Source: Terriglobia bacterium (GTDB lineage Bacteria; Acidobacteriota; Terriglobia; Terriglobales; SCQP01). Taken from it: DNA of 64,000 nt. Location of the stretch: positions 1-64,000 of the forward strand of contig JAJPKR010000016.1 in the NCBI GenBank assembly GCA_021323595.1. Reading direction: 5' to 3'. Below, piece by piece: positions 47,946 through 56,827 of this stretch; within the stretch, counting starts at the first letter, position 1; every line of letters starts with the position of its first letter. The position numbers and the translations under genes were made by a program. The notes below the pieces were generated by a model. The model was not told where the DNA came from and ran no database searches. It saw only the letters and a program-made list of their open reading frames with translations.

Positions 47946-48673
47946 GGTCGTAGTTCCTTTCCTTGGCTATTGTCGCCGTCTTTGCCGCTCCAGCGCCGCA
48001 AGCGCGCGAGCGGCAGCTTGCCGGTGTAGAGCGCCATGCCGAGCACGGAGTCGCAACCGAGCGCCTCGAGGCGCTCGATCTCCTCCAAGCTGGCGATGCC
48101 GCCGGCCACGCTCAGCGGCAGGCCGGTGGCGGCGCGCAGCTCGCGCACGCGCTCGAGCGGCAGCCCGCGCATCAGCCCCTCCGTCTCGACCTGGGTGTAG
48201 AGAAATCCGCCGCAGTGCGGCGCCGCCATCTGCAGGGCCTCAAGCGGCGTCCAGGGCAATCGCTCCCGCCACCCGCGCACCGCGAGGCGGCCGTCGCGGG
48301 CGTCGAGTGCGACGATGATATGCTCGCGCCCCAGGCCGCGCAGGCTGGGCAAAAATGGCGTCAGCCCGGCGGCGGAGAAGGCGGCGCTAGCGACGATGAC
48401 CGCCTCCGCGCCCCAGCCCAACACTTCCTCGGCGCGCGCCCGGTCGCGAATGCCGCCGCCGACGCGCACGCGAAATCCGGCGCCGCAGCAGCGCCGCACC
48501 AATTCGCGATTGTCGCCGGCGCCTTTGGCCGCGTCCAGATCCACAACCTGCACCACGCCAAAGCCACGCAAGGCGTCGAGCGTCGCCTCCAGCTCGCGCG
48601 CCAGCGCCTGGCGTTCGCCCTGCACGAGTTGAACGACCTTGCCGCCGGCCAAATCGATCGCCGGGATCACCAT
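47942..48673 (-). CDS. hisA: ProFAR isomerase (phosphoribosylformimino-AICAR-P isomerase)
   Basis: A 243-residue (beta-alpha)8 barrel that isomerises ProFAR to PRFAR in histidine synthesis. Catalytic Asp in [19 protein letters not shown] (~7) and in [10 protein letters not shown] (~125) are both present. [18 protein letters not shown] and [18 protein letters not shown] are phosphate-binding loops. ATG 48673 overlaps the hisHF stop by seven bases. It fits the ~240-residue family. Downstream it overlaps yqeY. Confidence 0.95.
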
Positions 48674-50067
48674 GACGGCCGCACCGGAATCCCGCCCGCG
48701 GCGAGCGCGCGCTTGAGGGCGGCGATGCTGGTCTCGCCGAAGTGAAAGATGGAAGCCGCCAAGGCGGCATCGGCGCGGCCGCGAGTGAAAACGGCGGCGA
48801 AGTCCTCGGCCGAGCCGCCGCCCCCGGAAGCGATCACGGGAATGGAAACCGCGCCGGCAACGGCGGCCGTCAGTTCGCAGTCGAACCCTTGCTTGGTTCC
48901 GTCGCGGTCCATGCTGGTCAAGAGAATCTCCCCGGCGCCCATCGCTTCCGCCTCGCGCGCCCAATCCACCGCGTCGCGGCCCGCCGCCCGCGATCCGCCA
49001 TGCGTGAACGCTTCCCAGCCTTGGCCGGCGCCGCGGCGGGCGTCGATCGCCACGACCACCGCCTGCGCGCCGAAGGCTTGCGCCATCTCGGCAATGAGCC
49101 GCGGACGCGCCAGCGCGGCGCTATTGACCGCGACCTTATCCGCCCCGGCGCCCAGCAGCGCACCGCCTTCTTCGAGGGTTCGCACACCGCCGCCGACGCA
49201 GAGCGGAATCCAGGTCTCGCGCGCGATCGCCCGCACCGTCTCCAGCAGCGTCGAGCGTTCCTCCCGCGACGCCGACACGTCGAGCATCACCAGCTCGTCG
49301 GCGCCCTGCCGGTTATAAGCCGCGGCCAACTCCGCCGGATTGCCGCTGTCGCGCAGCCGCTCGAACTGCACGCCCTTTACCACGCGCCCGCCGTGCACGT
49401 CGAGGCACGCGATAATGCGCCGCGTCGCGCCGCCCGCCGGCCGGGATGGAATCGCCACCGGTGCGCTCCGCGGCCAGGTGACGAAATTCGCCAGCACGAG
49501 TTCACCGGCGGCGCCCGATTTCTCGGGATGGAACTGCACCCCCATGACATTGCCGGCCTCGGCCGCTGCCGTGAACTCCTCCCCGTGGCACGCGACGTAG
49601 CTCGTCGCCTCCGTTACCGGCGCGGCATAGGAGTGCGTGAAATAGAAGCTCGGCGCCAAGCCCGCGCCTGCCAGCAAGCGCGAGGGGCGCCGGCAGGCGA
49701 CTCCGGTCCAGCCGACATGCGGAATCTTTCCCGGTCCGCGCAACCGCCGCACACGGCCTGGCCAAAGCCCCAGGCCCGCGGCCTCCGGCGCCTCTTCGCT
49801 GGCTTCGTAGAGCGCCTGCAAGCCCACGCAAACGCCCAAGAACGGCTTGCCGCTCGCGATGAAGTCGAGGATCGGACGCCGCAGGCCGCGCCCGTCGATC
49901 GCCCCCATCACCGCGCCGAAATGGCCAACGCCCGGCAGCACCGCCGCCTGCGCTCGCACCAGCGCGCTCGCGTCGCCGGCCAAGTACGGCTCGGCGCCGA
50001 GCCCCGCCAGCGCGCGCCGCACCGAATCGGTGTTGCCGCCGCCGTAATCAACGATCGCGACCGCCAA
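48667..50067 (-). CDS. hisHF: HisH-HisF fusion: imidazole glycerol phosphate synthase
   Basis: One uninterrupted 466-residue frame carrying both subunits. Residues 1-~203 are the class I glutaminase His[31 protein letters not shown], nucleophile Cys in [12 protein letters not shown] (~79) and His/Glu in [10 protein letters not shown] (~178). A ~15-residue Pro/Ser/Arg linker follows. Residues ~218-466 are the cyclase His[21 protein letters not shown] (catalytic Asp), [28 protein letters not shown] (catalytic Asp) and [12 protein letters not shown]. This matches the domain order of eukaryotic HIS7; bacteria usually have separate genes. Start is TTG 50067 with GGGAG six bases upstream; the nearby ATG is out of frame. 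Confidence 0.95.
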
Positions 50068-50078
50068 TCATCTCTCCC

Positions 50079-50112
50079 GAAAACAAAGCGCCCGCCGCGA
50101 ATGCGGCGGGCG
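50079..50112 (-). terminator. Attenuator-type terminator before hisHF
   Basis: A perfect 10-bp GC stem (50089-50098 with 50103-50112, loop 50099-50102) is followed on the minus strand by a U-rich tail (CTTTGTTTTC, 50088-50079). It ends one base before the GGGAG ribosome binding site of hisHF. Its position in the leader, not after a gene end, suggests attenuation. The stem is almost the same as that before hisI. Confidence 0.75.
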
Positions 50113-50138
50113 TCGCGAAATCCGAATGCTGAACCGGC

Positions 50139-50210
50139 TCAGCCCAGCCGCCGCCCGCGCGCCGCGCCAGGGGCGCGATGCAGGCCGCAATGCTGTAAGC
50201 GAGCGCTCAC
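50139..50210 (-). CDS. Second leader-peptide-like ORF (23 codons) before hisHF
   Basis: GTG 50210 opens a 23-residue peptide, starting MSARLQHCGLHRAPG and ending ARGRRLG. His codons are at positions 7 and 11. GAGG lies four bases before the GTG, and a -10-like TATACT lies at 50219-50224 just upstream, so the RNA may be nearly leaderless if that promoter is used. Length and the ARGRR tail resemble the leader peptide before hisI, and the tail is encoded by the same 15-base GC segment (50148-50162). It is followed by the terminator at 50079-50112. With only two separated His codons, it may be degenerate or answer to another signal. Bases 50211-50381 hold no other convincing feature. Confidence 0.55.
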   Translation of the reverse strand: MSARLQHCGLHRAPGAARGRRLG

Positions 50211-50381
50211 GAAGCCTCAGTATAACAGTCAGCCGTTTCTGCAGGCTCGAGAGGGCCCTCCAACGCGGGATGAGCATGGGAGCCGGGGCGAGGGCGATGC
50301 GGACTGCGCATGAGCAGACCGAGCGCGGGCAGGCCGTTTCGGTATTCACGTGCAAGCGCAAACGAGCACCCTCCCTTCGAG

Positions 50382-50981
50382 TCACAGCAACTCCTTCGTG
50401 CTCGGCAGCACGTCCAGCAACCGGCGGTCGCGGGCGCAAGCCACGCGCAAGGCGCGCGCAAAAGCCTTGAAACTGGCCTCCACCAAATGATGGCTGCTGC
50501 GGCCGTACAGGGTTTTGATATGCACGTTGCCGCCCGCCCCGGCGGCGAAGCCGGCGAAAAAGTCGGGCAGCAACTCGGTTTGCAGGTCGCCGACCTGGCG
50601 CGCCCGCGCTTGCACGGCAATGATGGCGTGCGCGCGGCCGCTCAGGTCCACCGCCGCCACCGCCAGCGCCTCGTCCATGGGCATCACGAAGTAGCCGGCG
50701 CGATTGATGCCACGCCGGTCGCCCAGCGCCCGCGAGACCGCGGCGCCGAGCGCCAAGCCGGTGTCTTCGACGGTATGGTGCTGATCGACGTCGAGGTCGC
50801 CCTCTGCGCTCAATTTCAAATCGAAGCCGCCGTGGCGCGCGAATAGCTCCAGCATGTGATCCAGAAATCGAATCCCGGTGGCGACCTGGTATTGGCCGCG
50901 GCCCTCGATGCGAAAGTCCACGTGCAACCGTGTCTCCTTGGTCACGCGCTCGACCACCCCGCGCCGGATCTTCAGCCCCAT
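50382..50981 (-). CDS. hisB: Imidazoleglycerol-phosphate dehydratase
   Basis: A 199-residue monofunctional IGPD with no phosphatase domain. The two metal-binding HHxxE-type motifs are present: [32 protein letters not shown] (~70) and [20 protein letters not shown] (~165). [20 protein letters not shown] is also typical. It makes imidazole-acetol phosphate, the substrate of the HisC domain encoded just upstream. ATG 50981 overlaps the hisC::HAD stop by ten bases. The hisHF gene follows after a 314-bp gap containing a second attenuator-like leader. Confidence 0.96.
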
Positions 50982-52819
50982 ATCCCCTCCAGCGCCGGCA
51001 AAAGCCGCAAGGCTGCGCCCACATCCGCCGCCGCCGCCTGGCAGCCCAGCTCGCGGAATCGGCGGCGCAGCCGCTCGGCATCGGCATGCCCGGGCACGAT
51101 CACGCCGACGAACGGCACGTTCGCCGCGCGCGCGCACATGGCGTCGTCCACGGTGTCGCCGCAATACGCGAGGACGCCCGCCGCCCCCGCGCGGCGCGCG
51201 ATCGCTGCCAGGCCCTCGGCGTCGGGCTTGCCGCGGCGCACGTCCTCGAGCGCGATCACCCAATCGAACCAGTGCGCCACACCGAAGCGCGCGAGCGTCC
51301 AGGCGGCGTCGGCGCGCGGGCGCCCGGTAAAGATCGCCAGCCGATAGCGCGCCGCCAGCCTCGCCAGCTCCGCAGCCGGCAGCAACCATCGTTCCTCGCG
51401 CCGCAAGCCGTCGTCTTCCCCGGCGCCGCGGTAAAAGGCATCGAAGACCGCGACCACGGTTTCGTAGGCCAAGTCGCGGCCGCGGCGGCGCAGCAGTTCC
51501 GCCGTGAGATCCCAATCGTTATTGAAACCACCGGCATCCTTCAACGCCTGAATCTCGTCCGGGGCGACTTCGCCGCCGCCCAAGTGGCGCACCGTCGCCG
51601 CGATCGCCCGGCGATATGACCGGCTCACATCCACGAGCACGCCGTCCAGATCGAAGGCCAGCACCGGCCTTTCCGCGCCAGCACCCCCGCCGGACGATGC
51701 ATCGCGCCGGTTGACCGCGGGTTCCCCTCGCTCCGCGCCACCGGTCCCAGGCCGCTCATCGACCCTACGCCAAATCCGGCGCAGCAACGCCACCACCCGC
51801 TCGGTCTGCTCGCTTGTGCCGCAGGTGACGCGCACCGTCCCCGGCACGTCGCGCCGCCGGTCGCGCAGCAGCACGCCTTCCTCGCGCGCCGCCGCCAGCA
51901 GTTCGTCGGTGCGCTCGCCCGCCTCGAACAACACGAAATTCGCCGCGCTGCGCCACCATCGCAGCCCCAGCTCGGTCAAGACCTGCTCCAGCCGGGCGCG
52001 GCTGGCCCAAATCTGCCGCCGATAGTTTTCCGCCCATGCGCGGTCGGCCAGGGCCGCCCGCCCGCAGGCGAGCGCGAGCGAGTTGACTGCGTATGGAGAA
52101 TGCACCTTCCGCAGCATCTTCACCAGATCCGCATGTGCCGCCAGCACGCCCAAGCGCAGGCCCGCCAAGCCATAGAGCTTCGAAAACGTCCGCGCCACCA
52201 GCAAATTGGGCGGCGAGCCAGCGCGCGCCATCAGCGTCGGCTCGCCGTCGCCCAAGAAATCGGCGTAGGCCTCATCCACGAAGAACGCGCAATCGGGCGC
52301 GGAGGCAATGCATTCGAGCAGTTCCGCCGCGGCGGTGTGACTGCCCGTCGGATTATTCGGGTTGGCCAAGAACATCAGCCGCGTCCGCGGCCCAATCGCG
52401 GCGCGCAAGGAGCCGAGATCGAGCGCGAATCGCCGCCCATCGTCCGCGTAACGAAGCGGCTTCAGCCGCGCGCCGGCGGCTTCGCAGTAGAAACGGTACA
52501 TCGCATAGGTCGGCTCGACCATGACGGCCTCGTCGCCCGGCTCGAGGAGCGCCGTAACCGCCAGCGCAATCGCATCGTCCACGCCGTTGGTCACGATCAG
52601 GGTTTCTGGCGGATGCCCGAACGCTCGCGCGATCTCCGCTTCCGCTTCGCCGTATTCCGGATATCGCGCCAAATCCTCAGCGCCCACCGCCGCCAGCGCG
52701 GCCAGCGCGCTCGGGGCGCAGCCAACGGTGTTTTCGTTGAAATCCAGCCGTAGGCCGCGGCGGCCCTCGAGCGGGGGATGATAAGGCTGCATGCGCAGCA
52801 CCGCTTCCCGCACCTTCAT
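50972..52819 (-). CDS. hisC: Histidinol-phosphate aminotransferase fused to HAD phosphatase
   Basis: One continuous 615-residue frame. Residues ~1-355 are His[61 protein letters not shown] and the PLP Lys in [16 protein letters not shown] (~220). After a ~40-residue Arg/Gly/Ala linker, residues ~395-600 form a HAD subfamily-IA hydrolase with all motifs: nucleophile [28 protein letters not shown], Lys in [10 protein letters not shown] and [11 protein letters not shown]. HisC makes L-histidinol phosphate, so the attached phosphatase is a strong candidate for the histidinol-phosphatase step, for which no other gene is seen here. It overlaps hisD by four bases (ATGA) and hisB by ten. Confidence 0.92.
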
Positions 52820-54144
52820 TTCCTCCCCTCCGGGGTCAGGGTCGCTGCGGCGGTGCGCTGCGCGGCGGGTTGCAGGCGCACGGCCACCGAGCCCGCATGC
52901 GCGTGCAAGCCTTCGGCCTCGGCGAGGGTGACGATGTGCAGCGCCAACCGCCGCAGCCCGGCCTTCGTCAGCCGCTGCACCGTGATCAACTTCAAAAAGT
53001 CCGTCACCGACAACCCGCCCCGCAAGCGCGCCCGGCCTTGCGTCGGCAGCACGTGATTGGTGCCGCTCAGGTAATCGCCCACGGCCTGGGGCGCATAGTC
53101 GCCCAGAAACACCGAGCCGGCGTTATGGACCTTGGCCAGGTCCGCGGCGGGCAGCGTCAAATGCTCCGGCGCCAGGCGATCGGCGAGCGCGAGCGCATGC
53201 GTCCAATCGCGCGCCAGGATAATGGCGGAGCGCCGCCGCAGCGCCGCGGCCGCGACCGCGTTCGGGCGCGCGCCCATCTGCCGCTCCACTTCCTGCTGAA
53301 CGGCTCGCGCCAAGTCCCCCGCCGGCGTCACCAGCCACGCCGCCGCCCGGGGATCGTGCTCCGCCTGCGCAATCAAGTCGGCGGCGATGAACGCCGGATT
53401 CTCGCCGCCGCGCGCCAGCCACAGCACCTCGGTCGGCCCGGCCGCGAAATCGATCTCACAGTCGCCGGCGACCAGACGCTTCGCCGCCGTCACGTATTCG
53501 TTGCCCGGTCCCACGATCTTCGCCACCGGCGCGAGCGTGCGCGTGCCGTAGGCCAGCGCGGCGATCGCCTGGGCTCCGCCCATCACCCGGAACTCCTCCA
53601 CGCCGGCCAAATGCGCCGCCGCGAGCACCGCGTCCGCCGGCGACGGGCACGCCACCACCACGCGCGGCACACCCGCCGTGCGCGCCGGCAGCGCGGTCAT
53701 CAGCAGCGTCGAAGGCAGCGGATACCGCCCGCCCGGCACGTAACAGCCGACGCTCTCGATCGCGCGCACCAGTTGCCCGACGCACACGCCCGGCAGGACG
53801 CGCCGCATCCATGGGCGCGGCTTTTGCCATTCCGCCATCCGCCGAATGTTGCCCGCCGCCTGGCGCAGGGCCCGGCGCAAGGCCGGTGGCGTGCGCCGCC
53901 AGGCCGCGGCCAAGGCGGCCGCGGAGACGCGCTCGCCCGGTGCATACCGGCCCTGCCCCGCCGCCGGGAAGCGGCGGCTCCATTCCGCCAGTGCCGCATC
54001 GCCGCGCCGCCGCACGTCGCGCACGATGCGTTCCGCCACGCGTTCGGCGGCGGCGCTCGCACGCTCCGCCTCGCGCCAGCGCCGTTCCAGCCCGGGCGAG
54101 CCCGCCCGCACGATCTCCAGCAAGGGTGGCGATGGCCGCGCCAT
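52816..54144 (-). CDS. hisD: Histidinol dehydrogenase
   Basis: 442-residue zinc enzyme that oxidises L-histidinol to histidine in two steps. Seen: ESVGCYVPGGRYPLPSTLLM (~130), VMGGAQAIAALAYGT, PVAKIVGPGNEYVTAAKRLV, AAGPTEVLWLA, AADLIAQAEHDPRA (zinc-binding Gln/His region), LAPEHLTLPAADL (catalytic Glu-His), and SGTNHVLPTQGRARLRGGLS. Length is normal (~430). ATG 54144 overlaps the hisG stop (TGATG), and its own stop overlaps the hisC::HAD ATG. A longer frame upstream reads through hisG but is a shadow. Confidence 0.96.
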   Translation of the reverse strand: MARPSPPLLEIVRAGSPGLERRWREAERASAAAERVAERIVRDVRRRGDAALAEWSRRFPAAGQGRYAPGERVSAAALAAAWRRTPPALRRALRQAAGNIRRMAEWQKPRPWMRRVLPGVCVGQLVRAIESVGCYVPGGRYPLPSTLLMTALPARTAGVPRVVVACPSPADAVLAAAHLAGVEEFRVMGGAQAIAALAYGTRTLAPVAKIVGPGNEYVTAAKRLVAGDCEIDFAAGPTEVLWLARGGENPAFIAADLIAQAEHDPRAAAWLVTPAGDLARAVQQEVERQMGARPNAVAAAALRRRSAIILARDWTHALALADRLAPEHLTLPAADLAKVHNAGSVFLGDYAPQAVGDYLSGTNHVLPTQGRARLRGGLSVTDFLKLITVQRLTKAGLRRLALHIVTLAEAEGLHAHAGSVAVRLQPAAQRTAAATLTPEGRK

Positions 54145-55025
54145 CACATCACCACCTTGTTCAGCGGATACTCGACGATTCCCTGCGCCCTCGCCGCCTT
54201 GAGCCGCGGGATGATCTGGCGCACCCGCGCTTCCTCGATGACCGTATTGACCGCGACCCAGTCCGGGTCGCTCAGCGGCGCGACCGTCGGCCGCTTGAGC
54301 GCCTCCAGCACCGCCAGCACCGCCTCCAGATCCTCGCGCCGCACGTTGAGCATCAGCCCCACCCGCCCTTGCGCCGCGATCGCTCCATCCAGCAGCAGCG
54401 CCAGCGTCTCGATCTTGTCCCGCCGCCAGCCGTCGTTCCAGGCCGAGGGGTTGGCGATGAATTGCGTGTGCGATTCCAGCACGGTGTCGACGATTCGCAG
54501 CTTGTTGGCGCGCAGCGAACTTCCCGTCTCGGTCACTTCGACGATCGCGTCGGCCAGCACCGGCGGCTTGACCTCGGTCGCCCCCCAACTGAACTCGACC
54601 GTCGCCCGAATACCGCGCTCGGCGAGATACCGGCGGGTGACGCCCACCAGTTCCGTGGCGATCACTTTCCCGGCCAGATCGGCGGCCGCCTGCACCGGAG
54701 AATCCTCCGGTACAGCAAGCACCCAGCGCACTTTGTTAAAGCTTTGCTTCGCGTACACGAGATCCCGCACCGCCAGCACCTGCGCCTCGTTCTCGAGCAC
54801 CCAATCCTTGCCCGTCAGGCCGACATCGAGCACGCCGTCCTGGACGTACCGCGCCATCTCCTGCGCTCGAATCAGCATGCACTCGATCTCGGGATCGTCG
54901 ATGACCGGAAAGTAGGACCGCGAAGAGACGAAGATCTGAAAGCCGGCGCGCTGGAAAAGCTGCACCGTCGCCTCTTGCAGGCTGCCCTTGGGGATGCCCA
55001 GCCGCAATTTCCGGCCCGCGCTCAT
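54144..55025 (-). CDS. hisG: ATP phosphoribosyltransferase (long form)
   Basis: 293 residues, first enzyme of histidine synthesis. [20 protein letters not shown] at the start, then [37 protein letters not shown] and [20 protein letters not shown] are the catalytic PRPP/ATP regions. The C-terminal ~75 residues ([20 protein letters not shown], then [20 protein letters not shown]) are the ACT-like regulatory domain that binds histidine in long-form enzymes, so HisZ is not needed. Feedback inhibition by histidine is expected. ATG 55025 overlaps the hisI stop (ATGA). Confidence 0.96.
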
Positions 55026-55354
55026 GCGAACCCTCCCTCGCGCCACTCGTGAAAGAAGCAGCTCCGCCGGCCCTCGTGACAAACCTGCCCCGGCCCTTCC
55101 ACCTCGACCTCCACGAGCAGCGCATCGCCGTCGCAATCGGTGAAGGCCTGGCGCATGCGCAGCCGGTTGCCGCTGGTCTCGCCCTTCAGCCACAGTTTTT
55201 GCCGCGAGCGGCTGAAGAACGTGACGTAGCCCGTGGCCAGCGTCTGCTCCCAGGCCGCGCGGTTCATGAATCCGAGCATCAGCACGTCGCCTTGCGCGGC
55301 GTCGCGCACGATCGCCGGCAGCAAGCCGCCTTGTTTGTCAAAATCCAATTCCAT
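55022..55354 (-). CDS. hisI: Phosphoribosyl-AMP cyclohydrolase
   Basis: 110-residue monofunctional His[21 protein letters not shown], then [20 protein letters not shown], with metal-binding residues in [13 protein letters not shown] and the Cys ligands in [15 protein letters not shown]. It has no HisE pyrophosphohydrolase domain, unlike E. coli HisIE; hisE is not in this window. AAGGAG lies 7 bases before ATG 55354. It is the first structural gene after the leader-peptide attenuator. Confidence 0.95.
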
Positions 55355-55390: not shown

Positions 55391-55422
55391 AAAATAAAAA
55401 CGCCCGCCGGGCGCGGCGGGCG
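55391..55422 (-). terminator. his operon attenuator terminator
   Basis: A perfect 9-bp GC stem (55401-55409 with 55414-55422, loop of four) is followed on the minus strand by UUUUUAUUUU (55400-55391). It lies between the His-rich leader ORF and hisI, 25-30 bases before the hisI Shine-Dalgarno. It can also work in the plus direction (CGTTTTTGG). The upstream GCGGGCG in the 15-base segment 55462-55476 is complementary to CGCCCGC in the terminator 5' arm, giving a possible antiterminator. Confidence 0.85.
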
Positions 55423-55449
55423 TTTTTGGGTCTCCTAATTGGGTGCCGA

Positions 55450-55536
55450 CTAGCTCCCGGACCGCCGCCCGCGCGCAAAATGATGCGCGTGATGGTGATG
55501 GCGGCGATGGAAGCCCCGAGTCATTCGGAAGTCCAT
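55450..55536 (-). CDS. hisL: His leader peptide
   Basis: A 28-codon ORF (ATG 55536) or 24-codon ORF (ATG 55524), ending TAG at 55450-55452. Its core reads FHRRHHHHAHHF: seven His codons (CAT/CAC) within ten residues, then ARGRRSGS. It is followed after ~28 bases by a terminator hairpin with U-run and then hisI, the classical his attenuator arrangement. Scarce charged tRNA-His would stall ribosomes in the His run and allow an alternative structure. If the promoter at 55535-55562 is used, the start site falls near 55528 and the second ATG is nearly leaderless. It is too short for normal gene callers. Confidence 0.9.
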   Translation of the reverse strand: MDFRMTRGFHRRHHHHAHHFARGRRSGS

Positions 55537-55562
55537 TGTACCTAAAACCGACCCGTCCGCAA
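55535..55562 (-). promoter_or_regulatory. Candidate his operon promoter
   Basis: On the minus strand TTGCGG (55562-55557) and TACAAT (55540-55535) are separated by 16 bases. The predicted start (~55528) would exclude the first ATG of the leader ORF and leave only a few bases before the second ATG (55524). The remaining bases to 55630 show nothing else. Confidence 0.5.
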
Positions 55563-55630: not shown

Positions 55631-56827
55631 CTAGCGCTCCATCGCCAGTGCGGGCGGCGCGGCAGCCACGAGATCGCCGGCACGGCGCCGCCGGTTCTTG
55701 CGCACCGACTTGTGCAAGTACAGCGCGCGGTCGGCATCGGCGAGCAGCGAAGCCGGCGATTCGCCGCCCGCCACGTGCGCGAAGCCGGCCGAGCCTTCCA
55801 CCGCGAGTTCCCCGCCGTCGTCGCAGCGCACCTGCAGCGGAAACACGCTCCGCACGCGCTGCAACGCGACCTCGGCCTCCGCTTCGCTGGCGCCGGCCAG
55901 CAGGATCAGAAATTCGTCGCCGCCCAAGCGGAAAGCCATTCCCGGCGCCAGCCGGGCCAGCGCTTCGGCCAGCGCCTGGAGCGCGCGGTCGCCCACCGCG
56001 TGCCCGAAGCGATCGTTGATGGGCTTGAAGTCGTCGAGGTCCACCGCGATGGCCGCCAAGCCGCGTCCGCCGCTCTTCTGCAGCGCGGCGGCGCGCGCCA
56101 TCACCTCGTCGAGCCGGCGCCGATTGCCCAACCCGGTGAGCGAATCGGAGCGCGCGAGCACCGCGATACGCGATTCATATCGGTCCACCAGCGTGCCGAC
56201 AATGAACCACACCGCAACAAGCAATCCAGCCCATAAGAGAAACGTCGTCCGCAGAAAGAACGCGCTGAGCGCTTGCGTCCGCTTGATGACGCTCTCGGGA
56301 TCTTGCGTCACGCAGACCGCCGCGTCGAGGGGCGGCGACCAGTGCGCAGCGATCAAGCGCGTTTGCCCCGTCACCGGGTCCACGGCCCAGCCGCGCAGGG
56401 CTTCGCGCTGGGCTAGGGCGGCGGCGAGGGCGAGGGTGCCGCGGCTGCTGCGCACCGCCATTGCCCCCCAACCCGCGCCGACAAACGCCGCTACGGGATG
56501 GGCCAGCACGGTGCCGCGCCGGTCAATCAAGAACGCTTGGGCGCCGGGCGCGACCTCCAGGTGCTCGATCAGCCGCTCGGCATAGCGCTGGCCTTCGCCA
56601 CTTTGGACCGAGCCCCCCGGAGCGGTCTCCTCCAGCACGTTCGCCAGCATGGCCGCAGCCGCCGCGTCGTGGCCGAGGGCCTGCGCCAGCAGCGCGCGGC
56701 GCATCAAACTCCAACTGCGCGAGGTAAGTTGCCACTCGCCGATGGCCGAAATGAGCAGCAGCGAACCGACGATCGCCACTTGCAAAACGCGCTTGTTGGC
56801 TAGCGCCGCGGACCACTGCACGTCCAC
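55631..56827 (-). CDS. Membrane diguanylate cyclase (sensor-GGDEF)
   Basis: 398 residues. Two transmembrane helices (VLQVAIVGSLLLISAIG, ~14-30; and FLLWAGLLVAVWFIVGTLV, ~197-215) flank a ~165-residue periplasmic sensing region resembling a single-Cache domain (QAFLIDRRGTVLAHPVAA). The cytosolic GGDEF domain has SDSLTGLGNRRRLDE, VDLDDFKPINDRFGHAVGD and the intact signature FRLGGDEFLILLAG, so it should make c-di-GMP. No EAL or HD-GYP partner is near. It diverges from the P-type ATPase gene, with 90 bp between them. Confidence 0.92.
   Translation of the reverse strand: MDVQWSAALANKRVLQVAIVGSLLLISAIGEWQLTSRSWSLMRRALLAQALGHDAAAAAMLANVLEETAPGGSVQSGEGQRYAERLIEHLEVAPGAQAFLIDRRGTVLAHPVAAFVGAGWGAMAVRSSRGTLALAAALAQREALRGWAVDPVTGQTRLIAAHWSPPLDAAVCVTQDPESVIKRTQALSAFFLRTTFLLWAGLLVAVWFIVGTLVDRYESRIAVLARSDSLTGLGNRRRLDEVMARAAALQKSGGRGLAAIAVDLDDFKPINDRFGHAVGDRALQALAEALARLAPGMAFRLGGDEFLILLAGASEAEAEVALQRVRSVFPLQVRCDDGGELAVEGSAGFAHVAGGESPASLLADADRALYLHKSVRKNRRRRAGDLVAAAPPALAMER

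Follow-up and report, generated by a model that had tools for sequence, protein, structure and literature searches.

The short reading frame with seven histidine codons in ten that lies ahead of hisI in the stretch of DNA analysed here (64 kb, called the window hereafter, from a 3.5-Mb draft genome) raises the question of whether a ribosome translating this frame decides the transcription of the histidine genes behind it. Our analyses lead us to regard the site as a ribosome-mediated transcription attenuator of the histidine operon, with a probability of about 0.93. The attenuation mechanism itself is already known and stands in textbooks as the "ribosome as histidine sensor"; the lineage, the RNA family and the leaderless form are apparently undescribed. 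A preliminary description of this DNA had pointed out an ORF of 24-28 codons with seven His in ten residues, a hairpin followed by a U-run and the ribosome binding site of hisI, and all of these are present in the sequence. Its guess of an acidobacterial source was also right, the genome belonging to Acidobacteriota, class Terriglobia, in the same order as Granulicella and in another family.

A diguanylate cyclase gene (55631-56827) and hisI flank the leader ORF, all three on the minus strand (Table 1). The ORF may be read as 28 codons from the ATG at 55536 or as 24 codons from the ATG at 55524, the shorter reading being likelier because the ATG of the longer one overlaps the -10-like TACAAT (55540-55535). 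The His codons occupy positions 55509-07, 55500-498, 497-495, 494-492, 491-489, 485-483 and 482-480, and the region as a whole folds 4.2 s.d. better than shuffled sequences. A simple promoter scan of this part of the window returned no promoter at the leader, the putative -35 falling below the scan threshold. Within the operon itself, a 466-aa ORF (48667-50067, minus strand) carries a HisH-HisF fusion, with HisH at about residues 3-197 and HisF at about 215-463, in the same order as in the eukaryotic HIS7 enzyme; the fusion may be an effect of the assembly or of the frame. Another ORF (50972-52819, minus strand) joins HisC (residues 4-349) to a HAD-type hydrolase domain (residues 387-566, TIGR01548) that possibly supplies the histidinol-phosphatase step.

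Table 1. Position of the leader elements and of the histidine genes in the window.
Feature	Position	Strand	Remarks
Putative -35, TTGCGG	55557..55562	-	weak (3 of 6); relatives have TTGACA, TTGACT or TTGACG there
Putative -10, TACAAT	55535..55540	-	spaced 16 nt from the -35; the 24-codon ATG follows after 10 nt
Leader peptide ORF	55450..55524	-	24 codons, MTRGFHRRHHHHAHHFARGRRSGS, stop TAG at 55452-55450
Segment 1, 5' strand of the 1:2 protector hairpin	55500..55515	-	contains the first His codon; from folding
Sensor, seven His codons in ten	55480..55509	-	from sequence and stall folding
Segment 2, antiterminator 5' strand	55466..55476	-	GCGCGCGGGCG, 3 nt past the last His codon
3' strand of the 1:2 protector hairpin	55452..55470	-	from folding
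Intrinsic terminator hairpin 3:4	55396..55427	-	perfect 14 bp, 4-nt loop, then ATTTT
Segment 3	55411..55422	-	pairs with segment 2 (antiterminator) or segment 4 (terminator)
U-run	55391..55400	-	TTTTTATTTT, first five bases paired within the hairpin
hisI, phosphoribosyl-AMP cyclohydrolase	55022..55354	-	AAGGAG at 55364-55359; identity checked
hisG, hisD, hisC with HAD-type hydrolase domain, hisB, hisHF	48667..55025	-	identities checked

The preliminary description had suggested folding the region for competing structures, and folding gave the alternatives 1:2, 2:3 and 3:4. The protector hairpin 1:2 overlaps the sensor codons, its duplex lying 3.2 s.d. below shuffles (z -3.2) in the window, and across relatives the hairpin over the His codons has a mean z of -2.0 against shuffles; an intrinsic terminator stands between the leader and the first gene. 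The pairing claimed earlier between a GC segment downstream of the His codons and the 5' arm of the terminator holds as such, while the exact best pair had to be corrected to 55476-55466 with 55422-55411, which makes 11 bp with one bulge (p 0.01 against shuffles). When a ribosome was placed with its A site on the His codon at 55497, 55494 or 55491 (His codons 3-5), the RNA made prior to the 3' arm of the terminator folded into this 11-bp antiterminator; a ribosome at the stop codon leaves the terminator as the sole possibility, and without any ribosome 1:2 and the terminator form together. Once the hairpin RNA is complete, the terminator is the structure of lowest free energy, also in the presence of a stalled ribosome. 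Since the terminator is always the more stable at full length, antitermination must be kinetic, i.e., decided during transcription. In the trp attenuator of E. coli the terminator is likewise the more stable structure at full length.

Taken together, these elements suggest the following course of events. RNA polymerase would start a few bases ahead of the leader AUG, and a ribosome would translate the 24-codon leader during transcription. With charged tRNA-His plentiful, the ribosome would reach the stop codon and cover segment 2, so that 3:4 (55427-55396) forms and transcription stops ahead of hisI. If tRNA-His were uncharged, the ribosome would stall on the His codons and 1:2 would be broken, leaving segment 2 (55476-55466) free to take segment 3 (55422-55411) before the 3' arm of the terminator exists, with readthrough into hisI-G-D-C-B-HF as the predicted result. 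Should no ribosome be loaded, 1:2 would form and the terminator would win.

The preliminary description had staked its reading on His codons being conserved in close relatives. We compared 90 hisI upstream regions from a single class (Terriglobia, Acidobacteriota; families f1, f2, f3, f5, f6, f7, f8, f13 and f15), counting as a leader any short ORF that has four or more His within twelve residues and a terminator behind it, and His codons and hairpin proved to be conserved in 87 of them. Of the three regions that fail, one (L118) shows a similar leader in weaker form. When stricter criteria were applied uniformly, 79 of the 90 regions had a His leader upstream of hisI, and none was found upstream of sat, DAHP synthase, trpE, ilvB or leuA. 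Other classes of Acidobacteriota (40 loci) have a leader ahead of hisI in eight cases and ahead of hisD or hisZ in three more; two further loci of the 40 have a His-rich ORF ahead of hisG with a weaker hairpin, the names hisD, hisZ and hisG of these first genes coming from a reading of the proteins and not from a family search. The run of tandem His codons that marks attenuators of his operons is found in the window, in the class and in some of the distant loci. It is worth adding that L204 and L207, both from other acidobacterial classes, have the His leader ahead of an apparent HisZ about 6.5 kb upstream of hisI, where hisZ would be the first gene of the operon. In non-acidobacterial loci, of which the 5 kb ahead of hisI were scanned, no His leader turned up within 300 nt of that gene.

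Besides the codons, the relatives preserve the two alternative helices. In the alignment of 44 relatives, the strand CGUGYCRGCGG, which usually begins 7-8 nt past the last His codon, forms the antiterminator by pairing with CCGCYGRCGCG in the 5' arm of the terminator. The covariation score of this antiterminator was reached by none of 500 shuffles, and sliding the partners drops the paired fraction to 31-55%; the column pair 21-97, for instance, is UA in 23 sequences and CG in 16. Covariation of the terminator lies above all 500 of its shuffles, and the shared column 97 varies together with both its antiterminator and its terminator partner. Across relatives the 2:3 pairing has a mean z of -1.9 against shuffles, with 56% at p<=0.05. 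Pairing falls when the arm is swapped for that of another relative (p 0.0002 in f2, 0.002 in f7), an effect that was not significant in f5, f6 and f1 (p 0.54, 10 sequences), the last being the family of the window. An antiterminator that uses the terminator 5' arm, the two structures being mutually exclusive, is thus present, with f1 as a group not significant (2:3 pairing weakly better than shuffles, mean z -0.8). A covariance model built from the 44 sequences, none of them of the window's family, finds the site as its best match in the 64 kb (E 9e-4). Finally, an identical segment-2 strand CATGCCGGCGG is read as IPCRRT in L015 and as PMPAD in L030, and the frame of this RNA also differs between f2 and f5/f7; since the same RNA occurs in different reading frames, selection acts on the RNA and not on the peptide. 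Sensor codons, terminator, antiterminator and 1:2 hairpin each being supported, and the stall folding of the window switching in the right sense, the attenuation reading of the preliminary description stands.

In 63 of the 87 leaders a strong promoter precedes the ORF, with a -10 that ends 6-12 nt ahead of the start codon (8-10 nt in 49 of them), an arrangement found in 1.4% of shuffled upstream DNA. Given a -10 so close to the AUG and the usual distance between a -10 and the transcription start, the AUG should fall within a few nucleotides of the 5' end of the mRNA. The leader mRNA is thus probably leaderless, judging from the -10 position, in a phylum for which about 13% of the genes have been predicted to be leaderless (PMC3160421).

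Could the hairpin simply be the terminator of the upstream diguanylate cyclase gene, accompanied by a His-rich frame that is there by chance? That gene is indeed on the same strand, GC-rich DNA yields many CAY-like runs (31 matches to CAYCAYCAYCAY in the genome) and the frame stays free of stops over 95 codons upstream. The preservation of leader and terminator in nearly all of the relatives (87/90) nonetheless refutes chance, the leader accompanies whichever his gene is first, not the gene upstream, and segment 2 covaries with the terminator arm, so that we find this explanation hardly credible. It is also very unlikely that a functional His-rich micropeptide, metal-binding for example, stands by chance ahead of hisI. 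Seven His in ten residues would suit such a peptide, and action in trans is known for small proteins such as peTrpL of Sinorhizobium (PMC7298713), but the conservation of the peptide does not extend beyond its His codons, the reading frame over the segment-2 RNA differs between relatives and leaders of the same build ahead of sat and DAHP synthase have Cys or aromatic codons instead. The leader peptide may still have an additional role in trans besides attenuation.

If one accepts that the leader regulates the operon, the level at which it acts has to be considered. Translational attenuators of his genes have been mentioned (PMC9413887), and the ribosome binding site of hisI could in principle be sequestered; yet the hairpin ends in a U-run (55400-55391) at least 26 nt upstream of the Shine-Dalgarno sequence (55364-55359), which is not inside it, and terminator-type hairpins with T tails recur throughout the relatives, leaving only a slight chance for control of translation rather than transcription. 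Still more remote is a His-specific T-box or a metabolite riboswitch, whose probability we hold to be practically negligible: T-boxes do control his operons in other phyla (PMC9413887), but neither the region nor 20 relatives contained a match to any Rfam family at threshold, and no T-box or riboswitch family was among the matches of a low-threshold search. Transcription attenuation by a translating ribosome accounts best for the locus.

This kind of leader is not limited to histidine. In three f5 genomes the covariance model also retrieved leaders with other sensors, such as MCCCHASVSG... ahead of sulfate adenylyltransferase and FFYYFSFW ahead of DAHP synthase. When sat and DAHP synthase genes were inspected directly, 6 of 30 sat genes had a Cys leader upstream and 19 of 50 DAHP synthase genes an aromatic one, the other genes looked at having few or none; their antiterminators have a mean z against shuffles of -2.7 (eight Cys leaders) and -2.2 (15 aromatic leaders). 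Cys-rich leaders with terminators upstream of sat, of which MCMCCCTCSVGGRRVTGN is an example, occur at L279-L283, L287 and L288, all in f5 genomes. The window's own genome encodes the aromatic leader MHRSVASRFWYYRSGGRGVS, closed by a stop codon and followed by a terminator and then DAHP synthase (G000 contig C6, L331, 1475-2400), with its ATG nine nt after the -10 TATACT and an antiterminator that is borderline against shuffles (p 0.065). In 15 relatives no leader was found directly upstream of trpE, ilvB or leuA, genes that are possibly not the first of their operons. The existence of three sensor classes, His, Cys and aromatic, is therefore supported. It is tempting to go further and see in them one modular leaderless chassis whose sensor codons were exchanged in evolution (His for his, Cys for sat, Phe/Tyr/Trp for DAHP synthase), providing lineage-wide amino acid control outside Rfam, a hypothesis that we put forward tentatively and with some doubt. 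Precedents exist in the Cys leaders of mycobacteria (PMC4633059) and in the aroF leaders with Phe/Tyr codons of Corynebacterium (PMC4046766).

At the gathering threshold, Rfam matched no leader in the window, in 20 relatives or at 12 loci whose leaders are of the sat, DAHP or distant his kind. The His_leader model (RF00514), which the preliminary description had proposed to run, stayed below its cut-off in all 41 genomes searched, the window's own among them, with the E. coli control matching. A low-threshold search of the region listed Leu and Thr leaders and small RNAs as its best matches, the Leu_leader (RF00512) reaching 31.8 bits against a gathering threshold of 50 bits, with His and not Leu as the codons in the window. 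A match to the Acido-Lenti-1 RNA (RF01687) at L316:3594-3639 (minus strand) is unrelated to the leader. The full-text literature, with most subscription papers outside its scope, held no report of His attenuation or leader-peptide attenuation in Acidobacteriota, and one mention of Acidobacteria together with leader genes turned out to concern the stop-to-start spacing, not His attenuation. The work of Lopatovskaya et al. in 2010 (Mol Biol 44:128), reportedly a large attenuation survey, could mention acidobacterial leaders. In 2010, almost no attenuator predicted in Acidobacteria had an assigned function (Naville and Gautheret, PMC2965389).

A function that is specific and testable can be given to a class-wide RNA element with covariation support. 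Together, the leaders collected here would form a new family of the Rfam type and would allow regulon prediction in abundant soil bacteria that are hard to cultivate. Since the leader apparently starts at the 5' end of the mRNA, it could serve to study how attenuation operates when initiation is leaderless.

Compared with known systems, the locus shares with the enterobacterial his leader (RF00514) the small size of the leader and its run of His codons, the 1:2, 2:3 and 3:4 hairpins, the intrinsic terminator and the his operon downstream; it differs in its first gene, hisI here and hisG there, in a start codon probably located at the 5' end of the mRNA, in its phylum, Acidobacteriota, and in falling outside RF00514. 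The earlier statement that such leaders are best known from Proteobacteria is fair, but they are also known in some Firmicutes (PMC9413887, PMC2965389). Those of the Bacillus cereus group, Peptostreptococcaceae and Erysipelotrichales likewise have a terminator and an antiterminator ahead of his genes and lie outside RF00514; they hold three to five His codons and are patchy, whereas the Terriglobia leaders are near universal in the class. A start at or near the 5' end is shared with trpL of Sinorhizobium (PMC7298713), with the ilvB leader of Corynebacterium, which has no ribosome binding site according to a reference in PMC4046766, and with the poly-Cys leaders of mycobacteria (PMC4633059), which have Cys codons in common with some of the leaders described here; all of these belong to other phyla and none senses His. 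In contrast to these leaderless leaders of Sinorhizobium and Actinobacteria, His, Cys and aromatic versions are here found in one lineage, some of them with the same antiterminator core.
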